A stretch of DNA of 41,701 bases from Acidobacteriota bacterium (lineage in GTDB: Bacteria > Acidobacteriota > Terriglobia > Terriglobales > SCQP01), in NCBI GenBank assembly GCA_021789895.1, contig JAJYIU010000030.1, forward strand, positions 1 to 41,701, written 5' to 3'. Position 1 is the stretch's first letter, and every line of letters begins with the position of its first letter. Shown here in pieces: positions 18,476-39,752 of this stretch. Under the pieces are notes generated by a model, which searched no databases, had not been told where the DNA came from, and saw only the letters and a program-made list of their open reading frames with translations. A program made the position numbers and the translations under genes.

Positions 18476-20479
18476 ATGCAAGTCTTGGGAACCTATGCCC
18501 TGCTGCTGGCCCTGATCACCGCCGGCTACGGACTCCTGGCCGGCCTGCTCGGCCTCTATATGCAACGCGAGCGGCTGACCGCCAGCGCGCTCCGCGCCGA
18601 TTTGGCCGTCTTTCCGCTGCTGACCGCCGCCGTGATCAGCATCTGGGGCCTGATCCTGCGCAACGATTTCGCCGTGGCCTTCGTGGCGGCGCACAGCAAC
18701 CGCGCTTTGCCCTTCTATTACAAGCTCTCCGTGCTCTGGGCCGGGCAAAGCGGCTCGCTCTTGTTCTGGAGCTGGGTGCTGGCTGGCTACGCTTTTATCG
18801 TCAATCTGACCAGCCGCAAGCGCCACCCCCATCTGCGCCCGCTGGCCGCCACCATCCTCGCCGGCGTCGAAGTCTTTTTCCTGCTGCTGAACAACCTCGT
18901 CACCCACCCCTTTGCCACCATCCCGGTCGCCGTTCCGGCCGACGGCAACGGACTCAACCCGCTGCTGCAATATCCGGAAATGGTCATCCATCCGCCGATG
19001 CTGTATCTCGGCTATATCGGCTTTTCCGTGCCCTTCGCCTTTGCCCTGGCGGCGCTGTTGAAACGCTATCCCGGCGACCGCTGGATCCATGTCACCCGCC
19101 GCTGGACTATGATCGCCTGGGGCTTTCTCTCCATCGGCATTGTCCTGGGCGGTTTGTGGGCCTATACGGTGCTCGGCTGGGGCGGTTATTGGGCCTGGGA
19201 CCCGGTTGAAAACGCCTCGTTTCTGCCTTGGCTGATGGGCACCGCCTTCCTGCATTCGGTAATGATGCAGGAAAAACGCGGCATGATGAAGGTCTGGAAC
19301 ATCTGGCTGGTGTTCGCTACCTTCCTGCTCTCCATCTTCGGCGATTTCCTGACTCGCTCCGGCGTGGTCGCCTCGGTGCACGCCTTCGCCCAGTCCTCGA
19401 TCGGCGCCTGGTTCATCGTCTTCATGCTGATCGTGCTGGCGCTCTGCCTCTACGCCTATCTCCGTAACCGCGATTTCCTGCGCAGCGAAAACCGCCTGGA
19501 AAGCTCGCTCTCGCGCGAGAGCGGCTTCATGTTCAACAATTTCGTCTTCCTGGTGCTGGTCTTCGCCATCCTCTGGGGCACCTTGTTCCCGGTGCTCTCG
19601 GAATGGATTCAGGGCCAGAAGATCACCGTCGGGCGGGCGTTCTTCGACCGCATCAATACCCCGATCTTCCTCTTCCTGCTGCTGCTCACCGGCGTCGGCC
19701 CGCTGCTGGCATGGCGCCGCACTTCCGCCGCCGGGCTCAAGCGCAACTTCCTGCTCCCCGGGCTGGCCTCGCTGCTGCTGCTGACGGGGCTCTGGCTGGG
19801 CGGACTGCGCGACGCCTATTCCGATATCGCCTTGGCGCTGGGTTTGTTCGTCGCCTGGCTGATCGCCAGCGAATTTTATCGCGGCGCGCGCGTGGTCGCG
19901 CGGCATGAAGGCGTCAATGTCGTGGCGGCCCTGCCCCGCTTGATCAGCCGCAATACCCGCCGCTATGGCGGCTATATCGTCCATCTGGGCATCGTCCTGT
20001 TGTTCATCGGCATTGCCGGCGCCGGCTTCAATCGCGATCTTTCCATGGCCATGCCTTACCACGCGCGCATGTCCATCGGCCCTTACACCCTGATTTCCGA
20101 GTCCTATACCCAAAATGACAATGCCAACTACAGCTCCGAAGCCATGATCGTGCAGGTGGAGCGCGGCGGCCGCCCGCTCATGACCCTCTATCCGGCCCGC
20201 CGCTTTTACAAGGCTTCCAACCAGGCGCAGTCCATCGTCGCCATCCACGTCACCCCGCTGGCCGATCTTTACCTGGTCTATGCCGGGCACGATCCCGCCA
20301 CCGGCCAGCCTATCCTGCACGCTTATTACAACCCGCTGACGGTCTGGATCTGGATCGGCGCCATCATCCTGGTGCTGGGCACGCTGGTAGCGTTGCTGCC
20401 CAATCGCCGTCCGCCCGCCCGCGCCCCGGCCTCCTCCTCCGCCCGCGCCGTGGCTCAGCCGGAGAGCGTGCAGGTATGA
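18476..20479 (+). CDS. ccmF: Cytochrome c maturation haem lyase CcmF
   Basis: The 667-residue polytopic protein (about 15 membrane segments) belongs to the CcmF/CcsA haem-handling family. It carries the tryptophan-rich periplasmic WWD motif (LGWGGYWAWDPVENASFLPWL region, about 237-257), conserved His residues in loops (VIHPPMLYLGY, HSVMM, SVHAFA) and a long periplasmic loop near the C-terminus followed by a final helix. CcmF attaches haem to CxxCH sites of apocytochromes. Its stop overlaps the ccmH start by ATGA. The spacer upstream holds a 12-bp palindrome. Genes for CcmA-E are not in the window. Confidence 0.96.
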   Translation: MQVLGTYALLLALITAGYGLLAGLLGLYMQRERLTASALRADLAVFPLLTAAVISIWGLILRNDFAVAFVAAHSNRALPFYYKLSVLWAGQSGSLLFWSWVLAGYAFIVNLTSRKRHPHLRPLAATILAGVEVFFLLLNNLVTHPFATIPVAVPADGNGLNPLLQYPEMVIHPPMLYLGYIGFSVPFAFALAALLKRYPGDRWIHVTRRWTMIAWGFLSIGIVLGGLWAYTVLGWGGYWAWDPVENASFLPWLMGTAFLHSVMMQEKRGMMKVWNIWLVFATFLLSIFGDFLTRSGVVASVHAFAQSSIGAWFIVFMLIVLALCLYAYLRNRDFLRSENRLESSLSRESGFMFNNFVFLVLVFAILWGTLFPVLSEWIQGQKITVGRAFFDRINTPIFLFLLLLTGVGPLLAWRRTSAAGLKRNFLLPGLASLLLLTGLWLGGLRDAYSDIALALGLFVAWLIASEFYRGARVVARHEGVNVVAALPRLISRNTRRYGGYIVHLGIVLLFIGIAGAGFNRDLSMAMPYHARMSIGPYTLISESYTQNDNANYSSEAMIVQVERGGRPLMTLYPARRFYKASNQAQSIVAIHVTPLADLYLVYAGHDPATGQPILHAYYNPLTVWIWIGAIILVLGTLVALLPNRRPPARAPASSSARAVAQPESVQV

Positions 20480-21006
20480 AGCCGTTCCTAAAAAATCAGG
20501 CCGCCGCCCGGCGGAAACTCCGCCTGCCCGCCGCATCGCTCGCGCTGCTGCTGCTGCTGCTGCTGTTCGCTTCCGCCGCCATGCGCGGTGGCGCTTCGCC
20601 CGTACCCGATCGCTACACCCGCCTCGGCCAGCAGCTTATCTGCGTGTGCGGCTGCCGCCAGGGCCTGCTGGTCTGCAACGACATACACTGCTCCTACCGC
20701 CATAAAATGCGGCAGGAGCTGCGCCGGCGCATCGCCCTGGGCGGCTCCGATACCGCCATCATCCAGGCCTTCGTGCAGGAATACGGCACCGCGGTGCTGG
20801 CCGTTCCCGCGCATCATGGCTTCGACCGGCTCGCCTGGATCCTGCCCTGGCTGGCCGCCGGCGCCGGCGTCCTGCTGCTGCTGCTGACCATCCATTTCTG
20901 GTCGCGCCGCCGGCTGCCCGCCCCCGCCGCTCCTTCCTCCGCGGCGCTCGACCAGGTGCGGCGCGAGTTGGCTGAAAGTGGCCTGCCGGAGGATGAGCCG
21001 CGATGA
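20476..21006 (+). CDS. ccmH: Cytochrome c maturation protein CcmH, Cys-rich variant
   Basis: The 176-residue protein has an N-terminal signal anchor (about 17-37) and a CcmH helical domain with its redox motif. A second membrane helix (about 118-138) and a cytoplasmic tail follow. In place of the usual LRCxxC it has CVCGC followed by VCNDIHC, five cysteines within about 17 residues. CcmH keeps apocytochrome Cys residues reduced for haem ligation. It is coupled by ATGA overlaps to both ccmF and the next gene. Confidence 0.93.
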   Translation: MKPFLKNQAAARRKLRLPAASLALLLLLLLFASAAMRGGASPVPDRYTRLGQQLICVCGCRQGLLVCNDIHCSYRHKMRQELRRRIALGGSDTAIIQAFVQEYGTAVLAVPAHHGFDRLAWILPWLAAGAGVLLLLLTIHFWSRRRLPAPAAPSSAALDQVRRELAESGLPEDEPR

Positions 21007-21314
21007 ATCTTGCTGCCCTTGCCGCCCTCGTTCTGACCGCCGCGGTCGGCTACTTCATCCTCAACGCTCCGCCCGAGCCGCTGGGCGACAGCCCGGAAGA
21101 AGCGAAAAAGCAGGCCCTGCTGGAACGCAAGCAGGCCGCCTACGAAAATCTCCGCGACCTGCATTTCGAGCATCTCGCCGGCAAGCTCACCGAGGCCGAC
21201 TACCAGGCCAGCCGCCGCCTGCTGGAAGGCGAAGCTGCGGCCGCGGTAACCGAAATTTCCCGCCTCGCGCCGCCCTCGCGCCGGCCCGACCCCGGCAAGG
21301 GTAAGCATAAATGA
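21003..21314 (+). CDS. Small CcmI-like protein
   Basis: The 103-residue protein has one N-terminal membrane helix (about 3-20) and a charged helical segment with EAKKQALLERKQAAYENLRDLHFEH and LTEADYQASRRLLEGE. It then ends in a Pro/Lys-rich tail. This resembles the N-terminal part of CcmI, which chaperones apocytochromes with CcmF/CcmH, but the TPR domain is absent. Both ends overlap neighbours by ATGA (21003-21006 and 21311-21314), supporting membership in the ccm operon. Confidence 0.8.
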   Translation: MNLAALAALVLTAAVGYFILNAPPEPLGDSPEEAKKQALLERKQAAYENLRDLHFEHLAGKLTEADYQASRRLLEGEAAAAVTEISRLAPPSRRPDPGKGKHK

Positions 21315-22657
21315 AGCTTTCGCCGCGATCCCGCCGCTGGAACTGGCGCGCCGCCCTCGTTGCCGCCCTGTGCGCGGCGGCCGGAGCGCATGCGCAATCA
21401 ACTCCGCCGGCCATGGGTCAAGCCGCGCCCGCCGCGCCGTTGGCGGGCATCGTCACCGACGCCACCTCGGGAAAACCCGCCGCCGGCGTGCAGGTCGAGA
21501 TTCTGGTGCCTGGCCAGCAGGGTATGCAGAGCGTCGGCGCCGCCCGCACCGGCGCGCATGGCCATTTTCAAATCTCGCCGCCCGCCGCCGGCGTCTTCCT
21601 GCTGGCGGCGCAGTATCGCGGCGTCGAATATTACCAGCCCGTTCATCCCGGTGCGCAGCAGCTGCGGCTTGAAGTTTTTCAGACCACTTCGGATACTCGT
21701 CAGCTCCGCGTGCATGAGCTGGCGACCGTGCTGCAGCCGGAAAAAGGCCAGTTGGCGGTGGTGGACGAATACATGGTGAACAACCGGCTTTCGCCGCCGC
21801 GCACCTGGTATCGCCCGGGAGGCATCTTCCGCTTTCTCATTCCGCGCGGTATCAAGGCCGACGGCGCGCAGGTGATCGGCCCCGACGGCATGACCGTGCC
21901 GCGTGACATCCTGCCCACCCGCCAACCCGGCATCTACACCCTCAAATACCCGCTCCGCCCCGGTCAAACCCGCGTGCAGGTTTCCTATCGCCTGCCCTAC
22001 ACCCCGCCCAAAGCCGCCCTCGATCTGGGCGCCCTCTATCCGGTCAACCAACTGCAGGTGTACGTGCCTTCGCCGATGCAGTTTGTCAGTCCTCGGTTTA
22101 GCCTCTTGGGCAGCCAGGATGGCTATCAGGTTTACGGGCTGGCGCATCCGCCCGCCCGCCTGCGTGTGCAAGTCGCCGGCGACGCGCCCTTGCCGCAGGC
22201 CATGCAGTCCATCGCCTCGGCCTCCGCCTCGCCCTCCGGCGCCGGCACTGCCGCCGGCGCCGCGGATGCTTCCAGCCCCGCAGCCGTCATCCCCAGCCCG
22301 AATTTCGTCGAAAAAAATTTCTTGACGCTGCTGGCCGGCCTGGCGCTGCTGGCCGCGGCCATGCTCTTTTATAAACTGCGCCAGCCGGAGCCTCTGCCCG
22401 CCGCCGCTCGCGCCTCGGCCGCGCCGCCCGCCGCACTCCCCGATCGGACTGCTCCCGTCTCACCCGCCGGCGATGGCGCCTCGCCCGCCGCCGAATCTGC
22501 GGATGATATGCAGCTCTTGAAAAACGACCTTTTCCTGCTCGAAGCTCGCCGCCATACCCATAACATTTCGAATGCCGACTACGAGCACGAGCGCCGGCAG
22601 CTTGAAGAGCGCATGCGCCGGCTGCTGAATCAGGCCTCCCCTGATCCCCGCGGCTGA
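21311..22657 (+). CDS. Exported carboxypeptidase-regulatory-like protein with a C-terminal CcmI-like tail
   Basis: The 448-residue protein has a signal peptide (about 1-30) and a carboxypeptidase-regulatory/Cna-B-like beta domain (about 42-120: LAGIVTDATSGKPAAGVQVEI). A second beta domain follows (about 150-290), then an Ala/Ser/Pro linker and a membrane helix (about 338-354). The cytoplasmic tail contains LFLLEARRHTHNISNADYEHERRQLEERM. That tail echoes the neighbouring small protein (helix, then DYxxxRRxLE). It is the last gene of the ATGA-coupled ccm operon. A role in envelope assembly or cytochrome maturation is inferred from context only. Confidence 0.82.
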   Translation: MKLSPRSRRWNWRAALVAALCAAAGAHAQSTPPAMGQAAPAAPLAGIVTDATSGKPAAGVQVEILVPGQQGMQSVGAARTGAHGHFQISPPAAGVFLLAAQYRGVEYYQPVHPGAQQLRLEVFQTTSDTRQLRVHELATVLQPEKGQLAVVDEYMVNNRLSPPRTWYRPGGIFRFLIPRGIKADGAQVIGPDGMTVPRDILPTRQPGIYTLKYPLRPGQTRVQVSYRLPYTPPKAALDLGALYPVNQLQVYVPSPMQFVSPRFSLLGSQDGYQVYGLAHPPARLRVQVAGDAPLPQAMQSIASASASPSGAGTAAGAADASSPAAVIPSPNFVEKNFLTLLAGLALLAAAMLFYKLRQPEPLPAAARASAAPPAALPDRTAPVSPAGDGASPAAESADDMQLLKNDLFLLEARRHTHNISNADYEHERRQLEERMRRLLNQASPDPRG

Positions 22658-22834: not shown

Positions 22835-22982
22835 CCTTGATTAGATGTTCGCCGGCCGGCCAGCGTTCACCGCCTCCTCGGCCCTGTGGACGCCGGATTG
22901 CCAAGCTTCATGCCGCTGGTTCGGATTCCCGGCGTCGCCCGGAACAGTTGCGGTGCACGCCGTAAACGGAGAGACTGAAGGC

Positions 22983-24008
22983 ATGCTGTTGGTGCTGAGC
23001 TGGCAGGCGGGCATTCCCGGCGAGCGGCTGGCGGAAGAATTGGCGGCGGAGCTGAACTGCTCGCTCTTGAATGCCGCCCGGCTGGAAGCTGCACTGAACC
23101 AGCATCGCGCCTCGCTCCCGTCTGCCCTCGCCGCGCCCTCGTCCCGGCACAATGGAGCCGAAGCGCCCGCGCCCGCGCCGCGGCTCGAATCTCAACGCCG
23201 CCGCCTCGAAATGCGTGAATCCATGCTGGCCGCGGCGATGGCCGCGCCGCTGATAATCGCCAACCTGGGCGGCGAATACGTCTTCAGCGCCGAAGACGCG
23301 CTGCGCGTCCGCCTGGTCGCATCCCGGCGCCGCCGCCTCGCCTGGCTGGCCGAAACTCGCGGCCTGGATCCCGCCGCGGCCGCGCCGGCGCTGGCTGCCG
23401 AAGCCGCCGCCACTCCGGGCTTGCAGCGCGGCGGCGAGCCCCGCCCCGACCGCTATGACCTGTTGCTGAACTGCGCCAGCTTCGGGCTGGCCGGCTGCCG
23501 CCGGCGCTTGCGCGAGGCCGCCGCCCTGCTCCCCCCCGGCCCTCTGCCCGCCGCCCGCGGCGAACGCCTGCGGCTGCATTTCCGCCTGCGCTTTGCCGAA
23601 ACTGCCGCCCCGGCCGCCGTCCCCGCTCCCGCCATCCCCCTGGGCGCTCCCGCTGCCCCCGCCCCGCTCCACTTTGCCCATCCTTCCGAGCGCATCTTCG
23701 CCCAGGTGCTCGATTTCTATCGCATACAGTGGCAATACGAGCCCCGCTGCTTTCCGCTCGAGCAGGATGCGGAAGGCCGCGTGACCGAAGCCTTTACCCC
23801 CGATTTTTATCTGCCCGACCAGAATCTCTATATCGAGCTGACCACCATGAAACAGTCGCTGGTCACGCGTAAGAATCGCAAGATCCGCCGCCTCGGCGAG
23901 CTCTATCCCGACGTCAAAATCCGCATGGTCTATCAGAAAGATTTCGAGGATTTAATCTTTCGCCTGGGCTTGGAAAGCGAAGCCGGCGGCGGCACGGCCT
24001 CGTTTTAA
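22983..24008 (+). CDS. Fusion of a degenerate cytidylate-kinase-like domain with a PD-(D/E)XK-like nuclease domain
   Basis: The protein has 341 residues. Residues 1-180 follow the pattern of cytidylate-kinase-like family proteins: an opening strand, an ERLAEELAAELNC helix, a mid strand (LIIANLGGEYVF), RVRLVASRRRRLAWLAETRGLDP, and DRYDLLLNCASFGL. The phosphate-binding loop lacks the Gly-x-Gly-Lys-Ser core (SWQAGIPGERL). After a Pro/Ala linker, residues 232-330 resemble a restriction-endonuclease-like fold with Glu253, Asp274 (TPDFYLPD) and Glu285/Lys290 (YIELTTMK), then a basic helix (VTRKNRKIRRL). From memory, a similar domain is found beside or fused to hypoxanthine phosphoribosyltransferase in other bacteria. 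ATG 22983 was chosen because homology begins there; GAAGG lies just upstream. Biological role is unknown. Confidence 0.75.
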   Translation: MLLVLSWQAGIPGERLAEELAAELNCSLLNAARLEAALNQHRASLPSALAAPSSRHNGAEAPAPAPRLESQRRRLEMRESMLAAAMAAPLIIANLGGEYVFSAEDALRVRLVASRRRRLAWLAETRGLDPAAAAPALAAEAAATPGLQRGGEPRPDRYDLLLNCASFGLAGCRRRLREAAALLPPGPLPAARGERLRLHFRLRFAETAAPAAVPAPAIPLGAPAAPAPLHFAHPSERIFAQVLDFYRIQWQYEPRCFPLEQDAEGRVTEAFTPDFYLPDQNLYIELTTMKQSLVTRKNRKIRRLGELYPDVKIRMVYQKDFEDLIFRLGLESEAGGGTASF

Positions 24009-24127: not shown

Positions 24128-26479
24128 TTAGCGATGTAGCAGCACCACCGCCACGGCTTGCTTGCCGAGCTGCACGCTGAATTCGCTCGCGGCGCCGCGC
24201 GCGGCCAGCGCCGGGCTGGGACCGCCCAGCAAATTTTCCGCTCCGGCCCAATGTTGCGGCAGGCGGATTTGGAATTGCCCCGGATTCCCGTGATTGATGG
24301 CGATGAACAATAATCCGTCTTTTGCGTTTTCCCCGGCCGGCATGGCGCGCGCCGGCACGTTCAGCAGCCGGGCCTCGACCGCCGCCGCGCCCCCGCCGTG
24401 AACCGCCAGCGGCGGCGCGACTCCCGCCCAGCGCGCCAGCGCGCGAATCAGCTTGCCCGCCCCGGCGCTGTGCAGGGTTTGGTTGGCCAGGCCGAGAAAG
24501 GTGCCGATATAAATCGTCCGCCCGCGCCCGTAGTGCGATTCAACCACTGCCGGACGCCCGTCGGCAAAGCGCGCCAGTACCTGGCCGCGCTCGACCTTCA
24601 GCGCCTCTTCAAACTGCGCGGTCGGAACCTGCAGCCCGGCCATCCCGTTGGGCGCGCTGGGCGGAAAACGGAAGCTGGTCTTCGCCCCCGGCCACAGCGA
24701 TGCCTCTTCCACCCCGAACACTCGGTCCAGCCCGCCGCCGGGAATGCGCGGATACGCAAACCCGCGCGCGTCGTTCCAGGCGGTGCGCGCTTCGCCAATC
24801 AGCGTGCCGCCGTGTGCGACGTAGCGGGCCAGCGCGCGCGCCACCGGACGCGCCAGCGTAATGTCGTACGGCAGGTAGATGGCCTTATAGCGCCCCGCCC
24901 GCCGCGCTACGTCGTCGGCGTGCAAAAACGTGACCGGCAGATTTTCGCGGTACAGGGCGCGATAGACGCCCATCAGGGAATTGCGCACCGCCGCGCCGGG
25001 GCTGACGGTATCGCCGCCGCTGAGATAGCTGAGCGGATTGTAGAGCAGCGCCAGTTGCGCCCGCGCCGGCTGGGCCTCATGGAACAGCCGGCTGTGCGCG
25101 TTCACCACCGCCGCCAGCCGCCCGGCGGCGTGCGCGCGCCGCGTCAGCGTGCCGTCGAGATGGATCATGCCGTAGCCGTCCGATTCGTAGCCGGCGTTCA
25201 TCGGATACCAGGCGTAGTAGGCGATGGATTTGGCCCCGTGCGCAATCGCCGTCCAGCCCCATTCCGTCAGCTCGGCGCCGGTCACCGGATCGTTGACTCG
25301 CAGCCCGGTGGCGCCCTGCCCGGCCTGCATCTCGCCCACAAAAAATCCCCGCCCCAGGCTGGCGGCGTACGAGCCGTCAAACCCGAACGCGCGCTCGACC
25401 GGCGGCCAGCCGTGCAACTGCGCCTCGGCGTGCATCGGATAAATGCTGGCCCCGTAGTAATCCACCCGCCGGAACATCTGCCAGTCGTCCGGGTTGCCGT
25501 AGCCGTCCAGCGGCGTGTTCAGCACTCCGGGGATATCCGAGTGGCTGCTGGTAATGTAGTTGCGGCTGACCGCCATCACCGCCCCTGCCTTCGCCCCCAG
25601 GTCCGCCGCCAGCTTGTGCAAAATGAACGCCCGCCAGTCCATGAAATCGGCGTAGGAAAGAATCGTCCCGAAGCGCGGCGGCTGCACTTGGCTCCAGCGG
25701 CTGAAGCCGCGGTACCAGGCGCGGTTCAGCGCCGCCAGCGTGCCATATCTGCGCCGCAGCCAGCGCTGAAAACGGGCGATGGTATAGCGGTTGTAGTCGA
25801 ACTGCACATGCGGCAGGTCGTTGAACCAGACCCAGTTCACCAGGTGCGGCTCGCTCCACAGGTCATAGCCGTAGAAGGCCGGGCTGGCGGCCGCCGCCTG
25901 CGCCACGTGACGGTAGAAATCCAGCACCGCGGCGTGCACGCCGGGATTGTCGAAGCTGTAGCCCGGCGACGCCTGCGACTGTATGTGCACGCCGGTCGCG
26001 GTGACGAACTCGGCATGCGGAAATCTTTCCCCCACCCAATCCGGCGCCGAATCGGCATACACCTGCACGATCACCTTCAGCCCCGCCTGCTGCGCCAGCG
26101 CCAGCAACTGTTGCAGGTCGCGCAGGTCGAATACTCCCGGCCGGGGCTCGGCGGTGGACCAATCCACCCAGGTCTTGACCGTGTTGAAGCCCAGCCGCTT
26201 GATCGTCCGCAACTGCGCCAGCCATTCGGCGCGCTCGCGCCGCGGATGCCGCGAAAGCATCGGCGCGCGCGATTTCCCCCCGGCAAACCAGACCGCGATG
26301 GGAAAAAAGTCGCGCTCGCCCCGCGTCAGCCGCGCGAGGCGCGGGGCGCGGCGGCGGGCTGTACGGACGGGCGGGCGCTCGGGGCGCGAGCGGCGGCGGA
26401 CGGCGCGGCTTCCCGCCTGGCCCGCAAACGGCAGCGCGAGCAGCAGCGGCAGCAAAACGGCAATGGATTTCCAGCGCAT
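24128..26479 (-). CDS. Exported GH42-type beta-galactosidase
   Basis: The 783-residue protein has a signal peptide (about 1-23), a basic linker, a GH42-type TIM barrel (about 50-420) with acid/base Glu210 (YDLWSEPH) and nucleophile Glu383 (FFVGEMQAG), a trimerisation/flavodoxin-like domain (about 450-650: LALLYNPLSYLSGGD, YKAIYLPYD, GGTLIGEART) and a C-terminal beta domain. GH42 enzymes hydrolyse terminal beta-galactosides with retention. It lies 84 nt downstream of the TonB receptor on the same strand, but a strong terminator hairpin fills that gap and its U-run abuts ATG 26479, leaving no Shine-Dalgarno. Expression may depend on read-through. Confidence 0.92.
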   Translation of the reverse strand: MRWKSIAVLLPLLLALPFAGQAGSRAVRRRSRPERPPVRTARRRAPRLARLTRGERDFFPIAVWFAGGKSRAPMLSRHPRRERAEWLAQLRTIKRLGFNTVKTWVDWSTAEPRPGVFDLRDLQQLLALAQQAGLKVIVQVYADSAPDWVGERFPHAEFVTATGVHIQSQASPGYSFDNPGVHAAVLDFYRHVAQAAAASPAFYGYDLWSEPHLVNWVWFNDLPHVQFDYNRYTIARFQRWLRRRYGTLAALNRAWYRGFSRWSQVQPPRFGTILSYADFMDWRAFILHKLAADLGAKAGAVMAVSRNYITSSHSDIPGVLNTPLDGYGNPDDWQMFRRVDYYGASIYPMHAEAQLHGWPPVERAFGFDGSYAASLGRGFFVGEMQAGQGATGLRVNDPVTGAELTEWGWTAIAHGAKSIAYYAWYPMNAGYESDGYGMIHLDGTLTRRAHAAGRLAAVVNAHSRLFHEAQPARAQLALLYNPLSYLSGGDTVSPGAAVRNSLMGVYRALYRENLPVTFLHADDVARRAGRYKAIYLPYDITLARPVARALARYVAHGGTLIGEARTAWNDARGFAYPRIPGGGLDRVFGVEEASLWPGAKTSFRFPPSAPNGMAGLQVPTAQFEEALKVERGQVLARFADGRPAVVESHYGRGRTIYIGTFLGLANQTLHSAGAGKLIRALARWAGVAPPLAVHGGGAAAVEARLLNVPARAMPAGENAKDGLLFIAINHGNPGQFQIRLPQHWAGAENLLGGPSPALAARGAASEFSVQLGKQAVAVVLLHR

Positions 26480-26482
26480 GGG

Positions 26483-26526
26483 AAAAAAATTTAGCCGGGG
26501 CGGAGCGTCGCGCTTCCGCCCCGGCT
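26483..26526 (-). terminator. Strong intrinsic terminator between the receptor and GH42 genes
   Basis: A perfect 12-bp GC-rich stem (arms 26515-26526 and 26493-26504) with a 10-nt loop is followed on the minus strand by AAA and seven T (26489-26483). The T-run ends 3 nt before the GH42 initiation codon. Confidence 0.9.
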
Positions 26527-26563
26527 GCCTGCCGCTTACGCGCGGCTTCGAAGTGGTTGCATT

Positions 26564-29500
26564 TTAGAAAGTGAACTTGAATCCGAACTGCAACTGGCGC
26601 GGTGAATTGGCCTGGTTCGTGACCTGCCCGAAACCGGCCATCACGCTCGGATCCGTCGCCGCGCTCTGGTTCCAGAACACGTTGGGGTAGCCATACTGCA
26701 CCGAGTTGGTGATGTTGTAGGCCGCCAGTTGGAATTGCAGGTTCTTGCCCTCGCCGATGGGGAAGTTCTTGAAGATCGAGGCATCGAGGTTCGAGGTGCC
26801 GTCGGTGCGCACGTTCAGCGTCGCCGGCGCGCTGCCGGGGAAGAACTGGTTCTGGGGCTGGTGGAAGCAGGTCCAGTTGATCCACATGGCCGGGTTGCCG
26901 TTGCTCGCCGGATTGCAGCTCATGTTCGGACGCTGGCTGAAGTAGGGATCGCCGGTGCCGCTGGGCGCGGCGATCGGCACGCCGGTGGAGAGGCTGAGAA
27001 TCGTGTTCAGCGTCCAGCCGCCCAGGGCCTCGTTCGCCCAGCCGTGCAGGTCGTACTTCCGCCCCCGGCCGAAGGGCAGGTCGTACGAGGCTTGCCAGGA
27101 GAACCAGCGCGCCACGTCCTGCGTGCTCAAACCGCGGTCCAGATTGGGATTCTTCCAGTCCTGGTGGAAGCCGCCGTTGGTGCCGATGAAGCTCAGCGGC
27201 GAAGTATAGTCGTCGGTCAGCAGCTTGCCCCAGGTGAAGGCCCCCAGCGTGGTGAAGTGCCGGGTGAGCCGCTTCTGCACCTTCACCTGCAGCGAGTGAT
27301 AGACCGAGTCGCCCGCCGGCGCGCCGCTGATCGAGACCCCGGCGCCGCCGATGCTGCCGTTGGTGAACTGCGGATAGAGCTGCAGCGCTTCCGCCTGCGA
27401 GATGGTCGCCGCGCCGTAGATCGGCGAGGTCGGATCGGTGATCGCCGCCTCGTAGGGATTCGGCACCTGGTTGTTGAGCGCCGCCTGGTACTTCTCGATC
27501 GTCTGCAGCGACAGGATGTTGTAATCCTCGCCTCCCACCGGCAGGTGCAGCCCGCGGCTGCCTACCCAGGCCATCGAGAAAATCGTCTGGTGCGGGAACT
27601 CGTACTGCACCCCGAGGTTGAAATCGTAGGTGGTCGGCTCCGGCTGCGTCCGCAGCTCGGTGGTCAGCACCGTGCCCAGGTTGGTCGCCGGCCCGAGCGC
27701 GCCGTTGGTGTTCTGCACGATGCCGTTGGGAAAGGCATTGCCCAGCAGGCTGATCGGCACGGTATTGCCGTCGGCATTGGTGGTGGTGGCGTTCCAATAG
27801 GTCGAGGCGTCGAACGAGTCGCTGTTGAGCGAGGGGTTGGACACCATGTGCGTGCTCGGCCCGTAGAAAATGCCGAAGCCGCCGCGCACCACCGCGCGCG
27901 CAAACGGCTGGTAGGCGATGCCGATGCGCGGCCCGAAATCCTTCATGTTGGTCGTGAACGGGCTTTGCCCGTTGTGCACGAACTGCTCGCCGCCGACCAG
28001 CGGCACCCCGTTGACGGTGTAATGCAGCGTCGGATCGAACCACTCCAGCCGGTTATAGCGCTCCGTCCGCCCGCCGAAAATGTCCCAGCGCAGCCCCAGG
28101 TTGACCGTCAGCTTGCGCGACACGTGGTAGTCGTCCTGAATGTAGGCCCCGTAATACGGGCTGGCCTCGGCGGCGAAGATGTCCTTGGTCCAGGCGTTCT
28201 GCCATTCATTCCCCGGCCCCGAGCCCATGCCCAGCAGGAACGAGGCGAAATCGCTGCCGTCGCCCGCCCAGGTCGAGGAGCTGGTCGCGGTGTTGTCGAA
28301 CAGGTACCAGCCGCTCGGCGCGATCGGTTGCCCGTCGTTCATGAACTGCTTCTGGTACTCGAACCCGAATTTCAGGTTATGGCTGCCCTGGATGGTGTCC
28401 AGCGCGGCGATGAAATCGTGGTCCATGCTGGCGAAATGGAAGGTCGTCCACGGCTCCGATCCCAGGTTGGTGGTCGGCCCGTTGAAATAGATCATCGGTA
28501 TGTCGGCATACACCGACTGCTTCGCCAGCGACGCCGGGAAACCCAGCGAGGTCATGTCGAAGCCGATCTGGCGCGGGTCCCCGGTCTGGTTCTCGAAATG
28601 CCGCACGAACGAGTAGCGCAGCTCCAGAATCGTGGTGGGCGTGAGGGTGTAGTCGTCGGCCAGCAGGAAGTTGCGGTCGTTGGTGATGTTCTGATAGACG
28701 TTCGGATCGAAGATGTTCGAGGCGCCGTACAGGTTGGCGTTGCCGAACTTCAGCCGGCCGAAGGAGAAGCGGCCGAAAATGTGCTGCCGGTTGCTGAAGT
28801 TGTCGTCCAGGCGGATATCGAACTTCTGCGCGTCGTCCGGCTGCAGGCCGGAGGCGAAGTAGTTGTTGGTGTGGTAGGGGCCGACCCCGGCTTGGTTGGG
28901 CAGCGGAAAATATTTGTTGTAGGCCTGCGCCACCGGGTTCAGATCCCCAGCCGGGATGATGTTGCCGGCAAACGGCTGGCGGTTGCCGTTGCCCTGGTCC
29001 GGCACCAGCGGGTTGTAAATGGTGAAGCAGTTGGTCGGGTTCGCCAGCGTGCAGGCGTCGGCGGAAAAATCCCCCAGCCGCTCGGCGGCGGTGGGCACCG
29101 TCATCGAGCCGGTCTGCAGCGTCCGCTGCTGCAGCCCTTCATAGTCGGCGAAGAAAAACATCTTGTCGTGCCGGATCGGCCCGCCGATCGAGGCGCCCCA
29201 CTGGTAACGGTGGAAATTGAGCGGCTTGTTCGGCTGCCCCGAGGCCAGTTCGTTGGCCTTGGCAAAACTGTCGTTGGCGGCCAGCGCATTGGGACGGTTG
29301 TAATAAAACGCATCCCCGTGAAAATGATTCGCCCCCGACTTGGTCACCAGGCTGATCACCCCCGCGCCCCCGCTCTGATAGCTGGCCGGCACGTTGTTGG
29401 TTTCCACCCGGTATTCCTGCACCGCGTCCAGCGGCGGCCGCAGGGCGGGAATCACCGCGCCCAGGTTGTTTTCCCCGATCGAGATCGGGCTGCCGTCCAG

Positions 29501-30112
29501 CATGTAGTACACCGAGCCTTGCAGCGCCCCGTTGATGGTATAGCCCGACACCTCGGCGCCCGGCCGGGCGTTGAAATCCACGTTGTTCACCGAGCCGTTC
29601 ACCGGCGTGATCCCCGCCGTCAACTGCACCAGTTGATAGGCGTCGCGGGTCACCAGCGGCACGCGGTGGATCATCTCCGCGCTGATCAGTTGCCCGACGG
29701 TGGAATTGCTGGTCGCCATCAGCGGCATCGCCCCGGTCACGGTCACTGTCTGGGTCACCGCCCCGGGATGCAGCGTCAGGTTGACTGCCGTGGTCTGGTC
29801 CACCGTGACTGGAATGCCTTTCCGCACCAGGGTGGCGAAACCGCCATGGCTGACTGTCAACTGATACGTGCCGGGAGCGAGCGAGACGAAAGCATACAGG
29901 CCGGCATGAGTCGTCACCGTCGAGAGCAGCGTCCCGTTGGCGATATTCACGATCTCCACCTTCGCTGCGGGCACCGCCGCGCCCGAGCTGTCGGTGATCA
30001 GCCCGCTGACCGTGCCCCGCCCCGCCTGCGCCCGCGCCGCCGGGCTCAAGCCGATCGCCAGCGCCAGAATCAGGCTCAGGCTGCTCCACCACGCTAACCG
30101 TGCTGTTTTCAT
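26564..30112 (-). CDS. Oar-type TonB-dependent receptor with carboxypeptidase-regulatory domain
   Basis: The 1182-residue outer-membrane protein has a signal peptide (about 1-28) and a carboxypeptidase-regulatory-like domain (about 33-115: GTVSGLITDSSGAAVPAAKVEI). A plug domain follows (about 125-240), then a long beta-barrel ending in an aromatic residue (FGFKFTF), as expected for outer-membrane barrels. Such receptors import large substrates, often glycans, with TonB/ExbBD energy. AAGGAG sits 5 nt before ATG 30112. It is divergent from a GntR regulator, with a candidate promoter and operator in the 154-nt spacer. It leads an operon with GH42, suggesting a galactose-containing glycan as substrate (inference). 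Confidence 0.95.
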   Translation of the reverse strand: MKTARLAWWSSLSLILALAIGLSPAARAQAGRGTVSGLITDSSGAAVPAAKVEIVNIANGTLLSTVTTHAGLYAFVSLAPGTYQLTVSHGGFATLVRKGIPVTVDQTTAVNLTLHPGAVTQTVTVTGAMPLMATSNSTVGQLISAEMIHRVPLVTRDAYQLVQLTAGITPVNGSVNNVDFNARPGAEVSGYTINGALQGSVYYMLDGSPISIGENNLGAVIPALRPPLDAVQEYRVETNNVPASYQSGGAGVISLVTKSGANHFHGDAFYYNRPNALAANDSFAKANELASGQPNKPLNFHRYQWGASIGGPIRHDKMFFFADYEGLQQRTLQTGSMTVPTAAERLGDFSADACTLANPTNCFTIYNPLVPDQGNGNRQPFAGNIIPAGDLNPVAQAYNKYFPLPNQAGVGPYHTNNYFASGLQPDDAQKFDIRLDDNFSNRQHIFGRFSFGRLKFGNANLYGASNIFDPNVYQNITNDRNFLLADDYTLTPTTILELRYSFVRHFENQTGDPRQIGFDMTSLGFPASLAKQSVYADIPMIYFNGPTTNLGSEPWTTFHFASMDHDFIAALDTIQGSHNLKFGFEYQKQFMNDGQPIAPSGWYLFDNTATSSSTWAGDGSDFASFLLGMGSGPGNEWQNAWTKDIFAAEASPYYGAYIQDDYHVSRKLTVNLGLRWDIFGGRTERYNRLEWFDPTLHYTVNGVPLVGGEQFVHNGQSPFTTNMKDFGPRIGIAYQPFARAVVRGGFGIFYGPSTHMVSNPSLNSDSFDASTYWNATTTNADGNTVPISLLGNAFPNGIVQNTNGALGPATNLGTVLTTELRTQPEPTTYDFNLGVQYEFPHQTIFSMAWVGSRGLHLPVGGEDYNILSLQTIEKYQAALNNQVPNPYEAAITDPTSPIYGAATISQAEALQLYPQFTNGSIGGAGVSISGAPAGDSVYHSLQVKVQKRLTRHFTTLGAFTWGKLLTDDYTSPLSFIGTNGGFHQDWKNPNLDRGLSTQDVARWFSWQASYDLPFGRGRKYDLHGWANEALGGWTLNTILSLSTGVPIAAPSGTGDPYFSQRPNMSCNPASNGNPAMWINWTCFHQPQNQFFPGSAPATLNVRTDGTSNLDASIFKNFPIGEGKNLQFQLAAYNITNSVQYGYPNVFWNQSAATDPSVMAGFGQVTNQANSPRQLQFGFKFTF

Positions 30113-30125
30113 AGCCGCTCCTTCG

Positions 30126-30137
30126 TGACCCTGGTCA
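30126..30137. repeat. Inverted repeat TGACC-CT-GGTCA in the receptor leader
   Basis: A perfect 5+5 bp inverted repeat lies just upstream of the receptor gene's ribosome site; a further GGTCA occurs at about 30160. It may be a second operator half-site set or an RNA hairpin in the 5' leader. Confidence 0.35.
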
Positions 30138-30172
30138 TCGCCAGGAATGAAGTGTGTCGGTCACCATGAATC

Positions 30173-30189
30173 ACTAGTGCTTCGCTAGT
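30173..30189. promoter_or_regulatory. Candidate GntR operator ACTAG-N7-CTAGT
   Basis: A perfect inverted repeat with 5-bp arms (30173-30177 and 30185-30189) directly follows the -10 box of the candidate receptor promoter and would cover its start site. Position and symmetry fit repression by the divergently encoded GntR/UTRA regulator. Confidence 0.55.
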
Positions 30190-30190
30190 A

Positions 30191-30219
30191 CATTTACATT
30201 AATAAAAGTCGCGAGTCAA
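30191..30219 (-). promoter_or_regulatory. Candidate sigma70 promoter for the TonB receptor operon
   Basis: On the minus strand TTGACT (30214-30219) is followed by a 17-nt spacer and TAAATG (30191-30196), leaving a leader of about 70 nt to the receptor start. The -35 is good, the -10 weak. The surrounding spacer is markedly AT-rich compared with the genes. Confidence 0.5.
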
Positions 30220-30266
30220 GAATATTAATATGTTATTATCAGAACTCGGTTTTCAGATCACAAAAA

Positions 30267-31046
30267 ATGGTGTCCCTCGTCTTCCCTCCGCCTGCCGCCG
30301 CGTCCGCCGGCCCGCTCGACCGCGCCGCGGCGGTCCCCCTGTTCGAGCAGATTAAAATCGCCTTGCGCGCCCGCCTCGATCAGGCGTTGCGCATGGGCGA
30401 ACTGCACCCCGGCGATTTCTTTACCACCGAAAAAGACGTCTGCCGGCTCTATCAGGTCAGCATCATCACCGCCAAGCGCGCGCTCGATGAATTGGAATCC
30501 GAAGGCCGCCTGGTGCGCCAGCGCGGCCGCGGCACCTTCATCGCCCAGCCCCGCATCGCCCAGAATCTCGATCACTTCTACCGCTTTTCCACCCAGCTCC
30601 TCAGCCAGGGCCTGCGCCCCAGCTACCGCAATCTCCACGTCGGCGTCGTCGTGCCGCCGCCGCATATCGCCCAATTGCTCGAGCTCAAGCCGCGCGCCAA
30701 GGTGGTTTCGCTCTCTCGCCTGCGGCTGGTCAATGAAGAGCCGTTCTTTCTGCAAACTTCCTATCTGCCGCACGCCCTCTTTCCCGGCCTGGAAGAGCAG
30801 GACCACGACCGCTACGCCCTCTACGATCTGCTGCGCGAACGGTATCAGTGCGGCCCGGCCAGTTGCCAGGACACCTTCGAGCCGGTGCTGCTGCACAAAT
30901 CCGCCGCCCGCCTGCTCGGCGTCCCTGCGCGCAGCGCCGGCATGCTGATCGAGCGCGTCACCCGCACCGGCGATGGCCGCATCATCGAAGTCTCGCGCGG
31001 CGTCGTTCGCGGCGACCGCTGCCGTTTAAGCGTAGATTTGCATTAA
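30267..31046 (+). CDS. GntR family (HutC/UTRA) transcriptional regulator
   Basis: The 259-residue regulator has an N-terminal winged helix (about 22-93: PLFEQIKIALRARL, FFTTEKDVCRLYQVSIITAKRALDELESEGRLVRQRGRGTF) and a UTRA ligand domain (about 105-250). UTRA domains bind small effectors, often sugar phosphates. It lies divergent from the TonB receptor/GH42 pair and heads a plus-strand run of TPR, ROK, SIS and MFS genes, so it probably controls both. ATG 30267 lacks an obvious ribosome site; the leader is AT-rich (TATTAT at 30234-30239 may be its -10). Confidence 0.95.
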   Translation: MVSLVFPPPAAASAGPLDRAAAVPLFEQIKIALRARLDQALRMGELHPGDFFTTEKDVCRLYQVSIITAKRALDELESEGRLVRQRGRGTFIAQPRIAQNLDHFYRFSTQLLSQGLRPSYRNLHVGVVVPPPHIAQLLELKPRAKVVSLSRLRLVNEEPFFLQTSYLPHALFPGLEEQDHDRYALYDLLRERYQCGPASCQDTFEPVLLHKSAARLLGVPARSAGMLIERVTRTGDGRIIEVSRGVVRGDRCRLSVDLH

Positions 31047-31100
31047 CGCGGTTCGCGGCGCCCCGGCGCCCGCCCCGCCCGCGGTCGGCAATGTTCCCCC

Positions 31101-34031
31101 ATGCGGCGGCCTATTTCCATTTCAATTCTCCTCGCCGCCGCGCTCCTCGCCGTCTTCGCCTGCGCCGCCGCGGCGCAGGCGCCCTCTGCGCCGCCCCGCC
31201 TCGCCGCCATCCGCCGCGCGCTAGCGCGGCGCCAGTGGAAGCAGGCCGCTGCCTGGCTGAGCGCTTACCTGCGCCTCCATCCCCGCAGCGCCCCCGCCTG
31301 GGCCCTGGCCGGCATGCTGGCCGATGCCCAACGCGATTTCCCCCGCGGCGGCGCGGATTTGCTCCGCGCCCGCCGGCTCGATCCCAGTTCCGGCAATTGG
31401 AGCAACTGGGGCAATCACCTGCTGCTCGCCGGCCATCCCCGCCAGGCCCGCGCCGCCTGGCGCCGCGCCCTCGCGCTCGATCCTGGCTTCGCCGACGCCC
31501 GCTTCAACCTGGTGCTTTCTTTGCTGCGCCGGCCCGGCTGCGCGCTCGCCGCCGCCTATCCTTCTGCCTCGGCCCCGCCTCGCCCTCCCGCGCCGGCGGC
31601 CGCCCCGCTCCCCGCCTGCGTCGCATCCGCGCTCGCCGCCTGGCGGGCTTTTGCCCCCCACCAGCGCCTGCAGCCGGCCATTGCCGAGTTGGGCGTGCGC
31701 GCCCGCCTGGACGCGCGCCGCCCCGCCGCCGCCCGCCAATTGGCCCGCGCCGCTATCGCCGCCCAGCCCGGCCCTGCCAGATCCAGCTTGCAGGCCAGCT
31801 TCGGCATGGATTTCCTACGCGCCGGCTTCCCCCGCCTCGGCCGCCCCTGGCTCGCCGCCGCGCTCCGCGCCCATCCTCATAATGCCGCCCTGGCTCTGGC
31901 CCTGGCGCAGGCTGATTTCTTCACCGCCGCCCGGCCGCCCGCCGCCTCTGCCGCCGCCGCCATTCCGCCCGCCGGCCGCGCCGCCGCCGCCCGCGCGCTT
32001 CGCCGCGCCGCCGCCGAATTCCAGGCCTTGCATCGCCAACACCCCCGCGCCTGGCGCCCGGAATACTGGCTGGGTCGCGTCGCGCTCCAGGCCGGCGATC
32101 CCATACAGGCCGCCAGCCGCCTGCTGCGCGCCGAAGCCGCGGCGCCGCAACAGCCGCTGCCCTACGCCGCCCTGGCCTCGGTGCTTTCCCGCCAGGGATT
32201 CTGGTACGACGCCTATCACCAGTGGCGGCAGTATCTCCGCCTCGTCCCCAACGATGTCCCTGCCTGGCTGGCCTTGGCCATCGTCGGCCAGATGGCCGAT
32301 CAGCGCCGGCCCGCGCTCGCCGCCATGCACCATTATTTAACCGCGCGCCCGCGCGACGTCCGTGCCTGGTATCTGCTGTCGCTCATGCAGCAGGGACAAG
32401 GCGACCTGCCCGCCGCCGCCGCCGCCCTCCGCCAGACCCTCGCCCTCGACCCGCGCTATGCTCCCGCCTGGGATACTCGCGCCAAGCTCGCCCTTGCCGC
32501 CAACCATCTGCGCCGCGCCCGCCGCGATCTCGCTCAAGCGCTCGCCGCCCGGCCCAACTACGCCCCCGCCCTCGGCCGCCTGGGCGAATGGGAAATGCGC
32601 CGCGGCCGCCCCGAGCTGGCCCTGCCTCTGCTCCAGCGCGCCACCCGCCTCGCGCCTCGCCGCGTCGCCGCCTGGTACCAGTTGGCGCAATGCTACCTGC
32701 GGCTGCACGACCGCGCCCACGCGCAGGCGGCGCAGCGCCGCTTCCAGGCGCTGCGCCAGGCGCAGCCGGCCTCGGGCGCCAATGGCGGACTCATCGCCTG
32801 GCTGCGCGCCGATCTGCGCCTCTCCCCCGCCCAGCGCCGGCGCCATTACCGCGCCTTCCTCCGCCAGGTAGTCCAGGCCATGCCCGGCAATCGCCGCGCC
32901 CGTTGCCAGTTGGGCCTCGCCTACCTTCAGGCGCATCAGACCTCGCGCGCGCTTCCCCTGCTCCGCGCCGCGCTCGCGCCTGCTTCGCCCCCGGCCGGCG
33001 CTGCCGCCGGCCGCCTGCCGCGCCTGGATGCGCAAGCCGCCGCCAATGCGCTGGCCCAGGCCGGGCATTGGACGCTGGCGGCAGCCTATCAGCAGGCGGC
33101 GCTGGCCCCGCCCGCCCGCGCCGCCGCCGCCCCCCTCGATGTCGCCCCGGCGCTGGAATGGGCCCGCCTGGCCTTGCGCGCCGGCCGGCTCCAGCCCGCG
33201 CTATCGGTGCTGTCGGCCATCCCCGCCGCCGCCTCTCCCCGCGGCGCCGCCGCCGATCTCGCCGCCCTCGCCTACGCCCGCCAGGGACACAACAACCGCG
33301 CCTGGGCCGCCTTCCGCGTCGCCTTGCGCCTCAACCCGCGCAACCCCGATTTTTATCGCGACGCCGCCGTCTTCCTCGGCAGCCGCGGACAATGGCAGCC
33401 CGCCCTCCAGCTCATCGCTCTCGGACGCCGCCAGTGCCCCGCCGCCATTGCCCTGCCGCTCCAGCAAGCCGTGCTGCTCCAGCTTTCCGGACGCCGCGCC
33501 GAAGCCCAGCGCGAATTGCAGGCCATCGCCGCCGCCCCCGCCGCCGCCGCCCGCGCGCGCAGGGAAGCTTCCACCCTGCTCGCCATCTCCTACTACACCA
33601 CCGACCAGAAGCCCCGCGCCCGCCGCCTCTTCGCCCGGCTCACGCGCGCCGATCCGGCCAACGCCTCCGCCTGGTACTACCGCGCCCTGCTTGCCTCCGA
33701 AGCCGGACATGCCCGCCCGGCGCTGCGCCGCGTCCGCCGCGCCCTCGCGCTCCAGCCGCATGACGCCGCCGCCCTCTACCTCGCCGGCAAGCTGCTGCTC
33801 GATGCCGGCCAGTTGCCGCGCGCCCAAAGCGAGCTGCGCGCCGCCGCCGCCGCCCGCCCCGCCTGGCCCGACCCTCATTTCCTGCTCAGCCGCTTGTACT
33901 ATCGCCGCGGACAAGCCGCCGCCGCCCGGCTCGAGCTGCAGCGCTTTCAGCAGCTCAACCGCCTCGCCCCCGCCTGGAAAGCGCGCGAGCTGCAAACTTA
34001 TTTGAACGCCGTCGCCGAATCCGCCAACTGA
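31101..34031 (+). CDS. Large exported TPR-repeat protein
   Basis: The 976-residue protein has a signal peptide (about 1-26) and a continuous array of tetratricopeptide helices from about residue 30 to the C-terminus. Typical units include AAWLSAYLRLHPRSAPAWALAGML, AWRRALALDPGFADARFNL and ALRQTLALDPRYAPAWDTRAKLA. It is extremely rich in Ala, Arg and Pro, which opens all frames and creates many false overlapping frames. TPR arrays bind partner proteins or glycan-related complexes in the periplasm. It lies 54 nt after the GntR gene and 5 nt before the ROK gene, hence probably in the same sugar operon. Its partner is unknown. Confidence 0.9.
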   Translation: MRRPISISILLAAALLAVFACAAAAQAPSAPPRLAAIRRALARRQWKQAAAWLSAYLRLHPRSAPAWALAGMLADAQRDFPRGGADLLRARRLDPSSGNWSNWGNHLLLAGHPRQARAAWRRALALDPGFADARFNLVLSLLRRPGCALAAAYPSASAPPRPPAPAAAPLPACVASALAAWRAFAPHQRLQPAIAELGVRARLDARRPAAARQLARAAIAAQPGPARSSLQASFGMDFLRAGFPRLGRPWLAAALRAHPHNAALALALAQADFFTAARPPAASAAAAIPPAGRAAAARALRRAAAEFQALHRQHPRAWRPEYWLGRVALQAGDPIQAASRLLRAEAAAPQQPLPYAALASVLSRQGFWYDAYHQWRQYLRLVPNDVPAWLALAIVGQMADQRRPALAAMHHYLTARPRDVRAWYLLSLMQQGQGDLPAAAAALRQTLALDPRYAPAWDTRAKLALAANHLRRARRDLAQALAARPNYAPALGRLGEWEMRRGRPELALPLLQRATRLAPRRVAAWYQLAQCYLRLHDRAHAQAAQRRFQALRQAQPASGANGGLIAWLRADLRLSPAQRRRHYRAFLRQVVQAMPGNRRARCQLGLAYLQAHQTSRALPLLRAALAPASPPAGAAAGRLPRLDAQAAANALAQAGHWTLAAAYQQAALAPPARAAAAPLDVAPALEWARLALRAGRLQPALSVLSAIPAAASPRGAAADLAALAYARQGHNNRAWAAFRVALRLNPRNPDFYRDAAVFLGSRGQWQPALQLIALGRRQCPAAIALPLQQAVLLQLSGRRAEAQRELQAIAAAPAAAARARREASTLLAISYYTTDQKPRARRLFARLTRADPANASAWYYRALLASEAGHARPALRRVRRALALQPHDAAALYLAGKLLLDAGQLPRAQSELRAAAAARPAWPDPHFLLSRLYYRRGQAAAARLELQRFQQLNRLAPAWKARELQTYLNAVAESAN

Positions 34032-34036
34032 TCCTC

Positions 34037-34993
34037 ATGCCTGCTTCCCGCTCCACCGCCGCCGCTTATCTCGCCGCCGACCTCGGCGGCACCAAAATCC
34101 GCGCCGCCCGCCTGAGCGCCCGCGGGCGCATCGAAGCCCTGGCGGAAGCGCCCACCCCGCCCGGCGGCGAAGCCGTCGCCGCCGCCCTGCTCGCGCTGCT
34201 GCGCCGCCTGCGCACCCCCGCCACCCGCGCCGCCGGCGTGGACGTGCCCGGCCTGGCCTATCCCGATGGCTGCGTCTGGGCCCCCAACCTCCGCGGCTGG
34301 AATCATTACCCGCTGCGCGCGCAACTGCGCCGCGCGCTGCGCCTGCCGGTGCTGGTCGAAAGCGATCGCAACGCCTTCATCGCCGGCGAGGTCTGGCGCG
34401 GCGCCGCCCGCGGCTCGAGCGACGCCGTCTGCGTCATGCTCGGCACCGGCATCGGCGCCGGCATCTGGAGCGGCGGACGCCTGCTGCGCGGCGCTCGCGA
34501 GCTCGCCGGCGCCGTCGGCTGGCTGGCCCTTGAGCGCGAGTTCCGCCCCCCGTACCGCCGCCGCGGCTGCATGGAATCGCTCGCCGCCGGCCCGGCGCTG
34601 GCCGCCGCCGCCCGCGCCGCCGGCCTCGATTGGGATACCCCCACCCTCGTCGCCCGCGCCCGCGCCGGCGACCGCCGCGCCCGCCGCCTGCTCGCCGCCG
34701 CCGGCGATGCCCTCGGCCGCGGCCTCGCCAACCTGGTCAGTATCCTCAACCCCGCAATCGTGATCTTGAGCGGCGGCTTCGCCGAAGCCGCCGGCGATTG
34801 GCTGCGCGCTCCCGCCCAGCGCGCCCTCCAGCGCTGGGCCCAGCCGCTCGCCGCCCGCCAGGTGCGCCTCGTCTTCAGCCGCCTCGGCCCTCGCGCCCCG
34901 CTCGTCGGCCTCGCCGGCCTGGTCTCCGGCGCCCTGCCCGGCGCCTTGCCCGCCGCCTCTTCGCGCGCGGCCGCTCGCTTTATTCATTCCTAG
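34037..34993 (+). CDS. ROK family protein, divergent sugar kinase
   Basis: The 318-residue protein shows the ROK/actin-like ATPase fold. DLGGTK (15-20) binds phosphate, VESDRNAFIAGE contains the catalytic-type Asp110, GTGIGAG (136-142) is the second phosphate loop, and an adenosine-binding region (ILSGGFAEAAGDW) lies near the C-terminus. ROK kinases phosphorylate glucose, N-acetylglucosamine and related sugars. Two hallmarks are altered. The E-x-G-H sugar-contact motif reads A-V-G-W (159-162). The zinc-binding Cys cluster is reduced to a single Cys178 (RRRGCMESL). A different substrate or a loss of activity is therefore possible. It sits between the TPR and SIS genes in the GntR operon. Confidence 0.9.
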   Translation: MPASRSTAAAYLAADLGGTKIRAARLSARGRIEALAEAPTPPGGEAVAAALLALLRRLRTPATRAAGVDVPGLAYPDGCVWAPNLRGWNHYPLRAQLRRALRLPVLVESDRNAFIAGEVWRGAARGSSDAVCVMLGTGIGAGIWSGGRLLRGARELAGAVGWLALEREFRPPYRRRGCMESLAAGPALAAAARAAGLDWDTPTLVARARAGDRRARRLLAAAGDALGRGLANLVSILNPAIVILSGGFAEAAGDWLRAPAQRALQRWAQPLAARQVRLVFSRLGPRAPLVGLAGLVSGALPGALPAASSRAAARFIHS

Positions 34994-35006
34994 GAGAACG
35001 TTCATC

Positions 35007-39039: not shown

Positions 39040-39044
39040 TTTTT

Positions 39045-39051
39045 CACCTCT
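39045..39051 (-). promoter_or_regulatory. Ribosome-binding site fixing the start at 39039
   Basis: AGAGGTG on the minus strand lies 5 nt before ATG 39039, whereas no comparable site precedes the alternative ATG 38955. TATGAT at 39071-39076 (minus strand) may be the -10, without a recognisable -35. Confidence 0.55.
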
Positions 39052-39140
39052 ATTGTTCTAAACACCCGCCATCATACCCCCGCCTCCCCCCTCGCGCCAC
39101 CCTGGGTTGGAGTATTGAGCTTAGGGGTATTGCGCTTTGT

Positions 39141-39614: not shown

Positions 39615-39654
39615 CGCTCTCGCTCATAGGTCAGTTGGCGGTAAATACGATACA

Positions 39655-39686
39655 GGGTCAAGTTTTATTTTTGGGGTCGAGATTTA
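39655..39686. repeat. Imperfect direct repeats between the PIN gene and its upstream partner
   Basis: GGGTCAAGTTTTA (39655-39667) and GGGTCGAGATTTA (39674-39686) match at 11 of 13 positions, spaced by 19 nt. T-rich GGGTCAAGTTTTATTTTT-like sequence is reminiscent of ends of REP-associated transposase elements; that link is a memory-based guess. Confidence 0.4.
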
Positions 39687-39752
39687 ATGAATGCATTCAA
39701 TTTCAGGTCGAATTCATCGGATAGGATTTATATCCTTGGATCAATTCGTTAT

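Follow-up and report, generated by a model that had tools for sequence, protein, structure and literature searches.

A nuclease-like domain regularly paired with a second HPRT paralogue in a predicted purine-linked module of bacteria

What is the role of a bacterial protein that joins a kinase-like half to a nuclease-like half for which no Pfam or NCBIfam model gives a match above its cut-off? We asked this of a gene in a 41,701-nucleotide stretch of an Acidobacteriota genome (the window), for which a preliminary description had proposed a nucleotide-sensing pseudo-kinase coupled to a nuclease, acting in defence, repair or nucleotide control. A nucleotide-coupled nuclease is still the best reading, stripped of the idea of a decayed pseudo-kinase, of Lys290 as a conserved active-site residue and of defence. 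With confidence evenly balanced, we infer from sequence comparisons a metal-dependent nuclease subunit that would act with a PRPP- or purine-binding partner derived from hypoxanthine-guanine phosphoribosyltransferase (HPRT); activity, ligand and substrate are all part of that inference.

The open reading frame is a real gene (Table 1). Its start is most likely at 22983; the nearest orthologue, L002, opens with the same Met-Leu, and an alternative longer in-frame ORF opens at 22845. Compared with L002, the window's copy has a dN/dS of 0.07 in the C-domain (CTD), 0.33 in the N-domain and 0.56 in the linker; the gene is therefore under selection, its C-domain most of all. The full-length AF2 model has a mean pLDDT of 82.1.

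Table 1. Positions of the gene, its domains and its conserved residues in the window
Feature	Position	Strand	Details
Whole gene: PF13189-like N-domain, linker and PD-(D/E)XK C-domain	22983..24008	+	341 aa
N-domain, residues 1-185, cytidylate-kinase-like fold (PF13189), P-loop lysine absent	22983..23537	+	Pfam 4.2e-7; 3hdt, 3fdi
Variable linker, residues 186-230	23538..23672	+	AF2 pLDDT 54-62 around 211-230; dN/dS 0.56
C-domain (CTD), residues 231-330, PD-(D/E)XK fold, phage endonuclease I kin	23673..23972	+	
Glu236, 60/60, matches T7 endonuclease I Glu20	23688..23690	+	alignment, 60 representatives
Tyr252-Glu253-Pro254, (near-)invariant	23736..23744	+	60 representatives
Asp274 (PD motif), 60/60, matches T7 endonuclease I Asp55	23802..23804	+	
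Glu285, 60/60, matches T7 endonuclease I Glu65	23835..23837	+	
Thr287, 60/60, at the classical E-x-K lysine site (T7 Lys67)	23841..23843	+	
Lys290: K 38, N 10, R 8, D 3 of 60	23850..23852	+	
Lys297-Asn298-Arg299-Lys300, helix following the E285 strand; K297 60/60, K300 59/60	23871..23882	+	

A kinase-like half and a conserved nuclease-like half

The cytidylate-kinase-like fold first proposed for the N-terminal half is borne out. Residues 6-137 match PF13189 (Cytidylate_kin2) with 30.8 bits (E 4.2e-7), above the Pfam gathering cut-off of 28, and in VIA comparisons the AF2 model aligns to the PF13189 crystal structures 3hdt (Z 17.6, rmsd 2.4, 157 aligned) and 3fdi (Z 16.8, rmsd 2.4, 152 aligned), with cytidylate kinases ranking below them at Z ~12. 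The P-loop lysine of a functional (d)CMP kinase is absent, the window reading SWQAGIPGERLA. The preliminary description took this as degeneration, but the P-loops of the two solved members of the family, EREYGSGGRIV and REFGSGGHLV (GSGGR and GSGGH), have no lysine either, so its absence here marks no special decay. What sets the window's lineage apart from 3hdt and 3fdi is that it also lacks the GSGG loop and that its N-domain, more diverged than most, is fused to the C-domain.

The CTD is the conserved part of the protein: it is 52-70% identical to the window's copy across phyla, with 12-25% for the N-domain in the same lineages, and its mean distance of 0.41, against 0.51 for housekeeping HPRTs, makes it more conserved than that enzyme. 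No Pfam or NCBIfam model matches it above cut-off; PF05367, the phage endonuclease I family, reaches 12-19 bits where its gathering cut-off is 29.1. T7 endonuclease I is recovered by a profile built from 35 CTD sequences (3cae, E 1.3e-5; 1m0d, 0.0051), and profile-profile comparison with phage endonuclease I gives a probability of 99.1%. The phage relatives of the CTD in IMG/VR are themselves PF05367, and its matches in PHROGs are endonuclease and Holliday-junction-resolvase families, with best values between 1e-5 and 1e-7.

Because the full-length fold search was filled by N-domain matches, the C-domain was predicted and searched separately. Modelled alone, it reaches a pLDDT of 90.8, with an alpha-beta core on which Glu, PD and (D/E) follow in order, and its VIA rows are mostly PD-(D/E)XK proteins: I-Bth0305I (Z 7.8), Bax1 (7.6), Vsr (6.8), an XisH-type protein (6.6), VRR-Nuc (6.4) and TnsA (6.2). 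Mitoribosomal proteins are also among them, at Z 8.4 (the top row; rmsd 3.1, 86 aligned) and 7.6. Given such middling Z values, the assignment to PD-(D/E)XK rests on sequence homology and those values together; Foldseek with the C-domain model returned no row below 1e-3, the VIA rows listed do not include T7 endonuclease I, and homology to endonuclease I rests on the sequence profiles. Taken together, model and profiles show that the CTD is a PD-(D/E)XK domain homologous to phage T7-type endonuclease I, in agreement with the nuclease-like fold suggested at the outset.

Metal-site residues and a candidate lysine

Among 60 CTD representatives clustered at 80% identity, E236, E253, D274, E285, T287 and K297 are invariant. 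The residue order is that of phage endonuclease I (PF05367; T7 gp3, a Holliday-junction resolvase), with E20, D55 and E65 (T7 residues numbered by counting along the chain) corresponding to E236, D274 and E285. Unlike the phage enzyme, the CTD is cellular and HPRT-linked, matches Pfam models only below cut-off, has an invariant K-N-(R/K)-K helix motif, and carries Thr287, in all 60 representatives, in place of the E-x-K lysine kept in nearly every phage relative aligned over that position. The acidic residues are thus as conserved as had been anticipated; the proposed Lys290 is a lysine in only 38 of 60, and it is K297, 12 residues after E285 and in the next helix, that is invariant instead.

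By analogy with other nucleases of this fold, K297, within the K297-K300 helix motif, is a candidate relocated catalytic lysine. The PD-(D/E)XK superfamily tolerates lysines positioned elsewhere, and in the cap-snatching endonucleases of segmented negative-strand RNA viruses, also PD-(D/E)XK enzymes, the catalytic lysine can sit on the following helix, as with K134 of influenza A and K124 of Hantaan virus (PMC4909276); the Toscana virus enzyme has a helix lysine, K145, and Thr129-131 shortly after E127 (PMC6847833). The likeness is confined to the active site, and it makes catalysis with a helix-borne lysine plausible.

Because the E-x-K lysine is absent, the CTD could instead be a binding-only domain. 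It would then be a catalytically dead nucleic-acid binder that regulates transcription or RNA together with the HPRT paralogue, in the manner of PurR or of TilS-HprT, a reading that we consider rather unlikely. The loss of the lysine from 60 of 60 representatives fits this reading, but the metal-site Glu, Asp and Glu are invariant across phyla and pure binding would have no need of them.

The HPRT paralogue and its possible part in gating

The nuclease-like domain had been described as a neighbour of nucleotide salvage enzymes, and a survey of its partners, as then suggested, revealed a stronger association than claimed, along with PF13189-like, GAF and PC4-like partner domains. At 132 of 148 evaluable loci the CTD is followed on the same strand, within 700 nt, by an HPRT gene (median gap 39 nt), and at 35 of those 132 the two share one reading frame; the other 16 loci, among them the window's own, have no adjacent HPRT. 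A PF13189-CTD protein followed by HPRT occurs in Acidobacteriota, Bacillota and one deltaproteobacterium, and the three parts are separate genes in Ornatilinea (L022) and Anaerolineaceae (L048), where the PF13189-like gene was named by eye, and at a third locus (L230), where a profile matches it. Actinomycetota and Acidobacteriota have the CTD and then HPRT with no N-terminal part, Dormibacteria and other Chloroflexi a CTD-HPRT fusion, and Dehalococcoidia a GAF-CTD-HPRT chain; a PC4-like-CTD protein, its PC4 match under the Pfam cut-off, precedes HPRT in Nitrospirota, Desulfobacca and, by eye, one acidobacterium. At some loci the two genes overlap, the nuclease-like gene first. There is no fixed wider neighbourhood, flanking genes varying by locus, and 20 module loci contained no purine-related riboswitch. 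At one locus (L300, G781) the HPRT precedes the C-domain gene by ~2 kb, and a DUF151-like ORF (by eye) separates them. In the literature searched, we found no paper naming the pairing and no description of the cellular role of the CTD.

Counted as matches at strong E-values in the genomes sampled per phylum, the CTD is present in ~112 of 246 genomes of Gaiella's phylum (Actinomycetota), nearly half of the sample; ~58 of 201 of Ornatilinea's (Chloroflexota), over a quarter; ~30 of 299 of a Clostridia phylum; 13 of 199 Acidobacteriota; and 3 of 148 of Desulfobacca's phylum. A module of this kind would be conserved across Actinomycetota, Chloroflexota, Bacillota, Acidobacteriota and further groups. 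For a domain so widespread and conserved, yet without a Pfam or NCBIfam model above cut-off, a basic cellular role is very likely. Among plasmids and phages there were one fused hpt, in Thermomicrobium roseum, a single weaker match and only distant nucleases of phages. On several phage contigs (L090, L100, L101) two endonuclease-I-like domains are encoded separately, many of them preceded by other domains, and L085 has a NUMOD3 motif; this suggests homing endonucleases of the same catalytic fold.

The overlap with the nuclease-like gene first and the phage relatives would also fit a pair of defence or toxin-antitoxin type, with HPRT controlling a nuclease toxin. We judge this very improbable. 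A defence role, one of those first proposed, is disfavoured by C-domain conservation, which exceeds that of housekeeping HPRT, and by the want of any PADLOC model matching over most of the length, the matches being weak and partial (E 2e-4 or weaker); the dN/dS of the C-domain, its identity across phyla and the fusion of both parts into one chain at 35 loci also speak against such a pair.

The linked HPRT is a second paralogue. Each of the 31 genomes tested encodes an HPRT that passes the TIGR01203 cut-off, and almost all of them encode two. In a tree of 79 rows the 32 housekeeping HPRTs fall into a single group (98/97 support), with the linked copies outside it. The housekeeping or linked label changes 3 times on the tree, against a mean of 26 when shuffled, with the bootstrap not fully settled. 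Two strong HPRTs occur in 12 of 13 Acidobacteriota genomes with a CTD and in 14 of 186 without (Fisher 2e-11), and CTD distances correlate with those of the linked HPRT at r 0.64 and of the housekeeping HPRT at r 0.40.

We compared 78 linked and 30 housekeeping representatives residue by residue, using human numbering and residue roles. The loop Ser (S103) is kept in 40 of 78 linked and 30 of 30 housekeeping copies, the Tyr in 55 and 30, the catalytic Asp (D137) in 66 and 30, and the purine Lys (K165) in 25 and 28; linked HPRTs retain E133, T138 and G139 of the PRPP loop and also D193 and R199. By these counts, PRPP-binding residues are better preserved in the linked paralogue than purine-binding or catalytic ones, the latter being partly lost, a pattern that may, but need not, point to a PRT-type sensor. 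Halanaerobiales have Arg and the Dormibacteria fusions have Asn where the catalytic Asp should be (L061, L057, L065; L027, L030, L058), and the linked HPRTs of these two groups are, on their sequences, the strongest candidates for a PRPP sensor without catalysis.

Since most linked HPRTs keep the catalytic Asp (66 of 78), they may be working enzymes, and they usually score above the HGPRTase equivalog cut-off of TIGR01203. Both points would suit an ordinary or altered-specificity salvage enzyme, with a CTD that supplies nucleotides, repairs DNA or acts on modified bases. That seems improbable to us: many linked copies, branching outside the housekeeping group, have lost the purine-contact Lys and the loop Ser, and nearly all genomes tested already possess a housekeeping HPRT.

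An eroded active site beside an intact PRPP loop, like the PC4-like partner domain, would also accord with the regulatory nucleic-acid binder considered above, for which there are precedents. PurR has a helix-turn-helix in place of the PD-(D/E)XK domain, and its PRT domain belongs to another family. In this regulator of Gram-positive bacteria a PRT-derived domain is joined to a nucleic-acid-acting domain and serves as a PRPP/ppGpp sensor (PMC13170274), and B. subtilis HprT and TilS act at the ftsH promoter (PMC8152036).

On our preferred reading, the gene product would be the nuclease-like subunit of a widespread purine-linked module, with a core made of a ~100-aa PD-(D/E)XK domain and a second, specialised HPRT paralogue, and a third, N-terminal part that varies by lineage (PF13189-like kinase, GAF, PC4-like or none). 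The HPRT-derived subunit, alone or with the N-terminal domain, would bind PRPP or a purine nucleotide and would gate the PD-(D/E)XK domain, which would use metal ions and the helix lysine to cleave, or would at least bind, RNA or DNA. Weighing against this reading are the missing E-x-K lysine, the mitoribosomal protein that heads the VIA rows, the catalytic Asp still present in most linked HPRTs, the 16 loci where HPRT is not adjacent and the lack of purine-related riboswitches in 20 module loci. More tentatively, the module may represent a class of metabolite-gated nucleases in which an HPRT-derived sensor of PRPP or purine nucleotides controls a relocated-lysine PD-(D/E)XK endonuclease, with interchangeable accessory domains. 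If so, there would be a direct link from nucleotide supply to the processing of RNA or DNA. Two kinds of gene share the annotation 'hpt', and one of them may have been wrongly labelled as a simple salvage enzyme.

A split operon in the window's lineage

No HPRT lies beside the CTD gene in the window or in L002, L003 and L004. The window's own genome has HPRTs on contigs C34 and C29; in the tree, the former groups with housekeeping HPRTs and the latter with linked HPRTs, alongside the extra copies of the L002 and L003 genomes. Of 11 genomes in which the adjacent HPRT is absent or displaced, 9 have two HPRTs, and the genome of the HPRT-less locus L040 retains one outside the housekeeping group. 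A mutL/recF/nth-like setting noted by eye at L040 is not repeated at other HPRT-less loci. A matching paralogue kept elsewhere in the genome means that the module can split without losing either part, and by gene content and tree position the operon is split in the window's lineage with both components still in the genome.

Directly upstream of the gene, 18476-22657 holds cytochrome c maturation-like genes by eye, including a CcmF-like (18476-20479) and a CcmH-like gene (20476-21006). A similar order recurs in L002 but not in L003 or L004, so the split-off gene has moved within the lineage. A third HPRT-like match in this genome (L181, contig C17) is weak, at 42 bits, and adjoins aspartate carbamoyltransferase- and dihydroorotase-like genes; it is probably PyrR. 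Downstream, by eye, are a glycoside-hydrolase-like ORF on the opposite strand (24128-26479) and a TonB-dependent-receptor-like ORF of 1182 aa (26564-30112), near a GntR-like regulator (30267-31046); 24128-31046 is probably a sugar-use cluster. Further on, G+C is 74-77% in 31001-35000, where both strands carry long ORFs that overlap, and it falls to 52-56% in 39001-41000.
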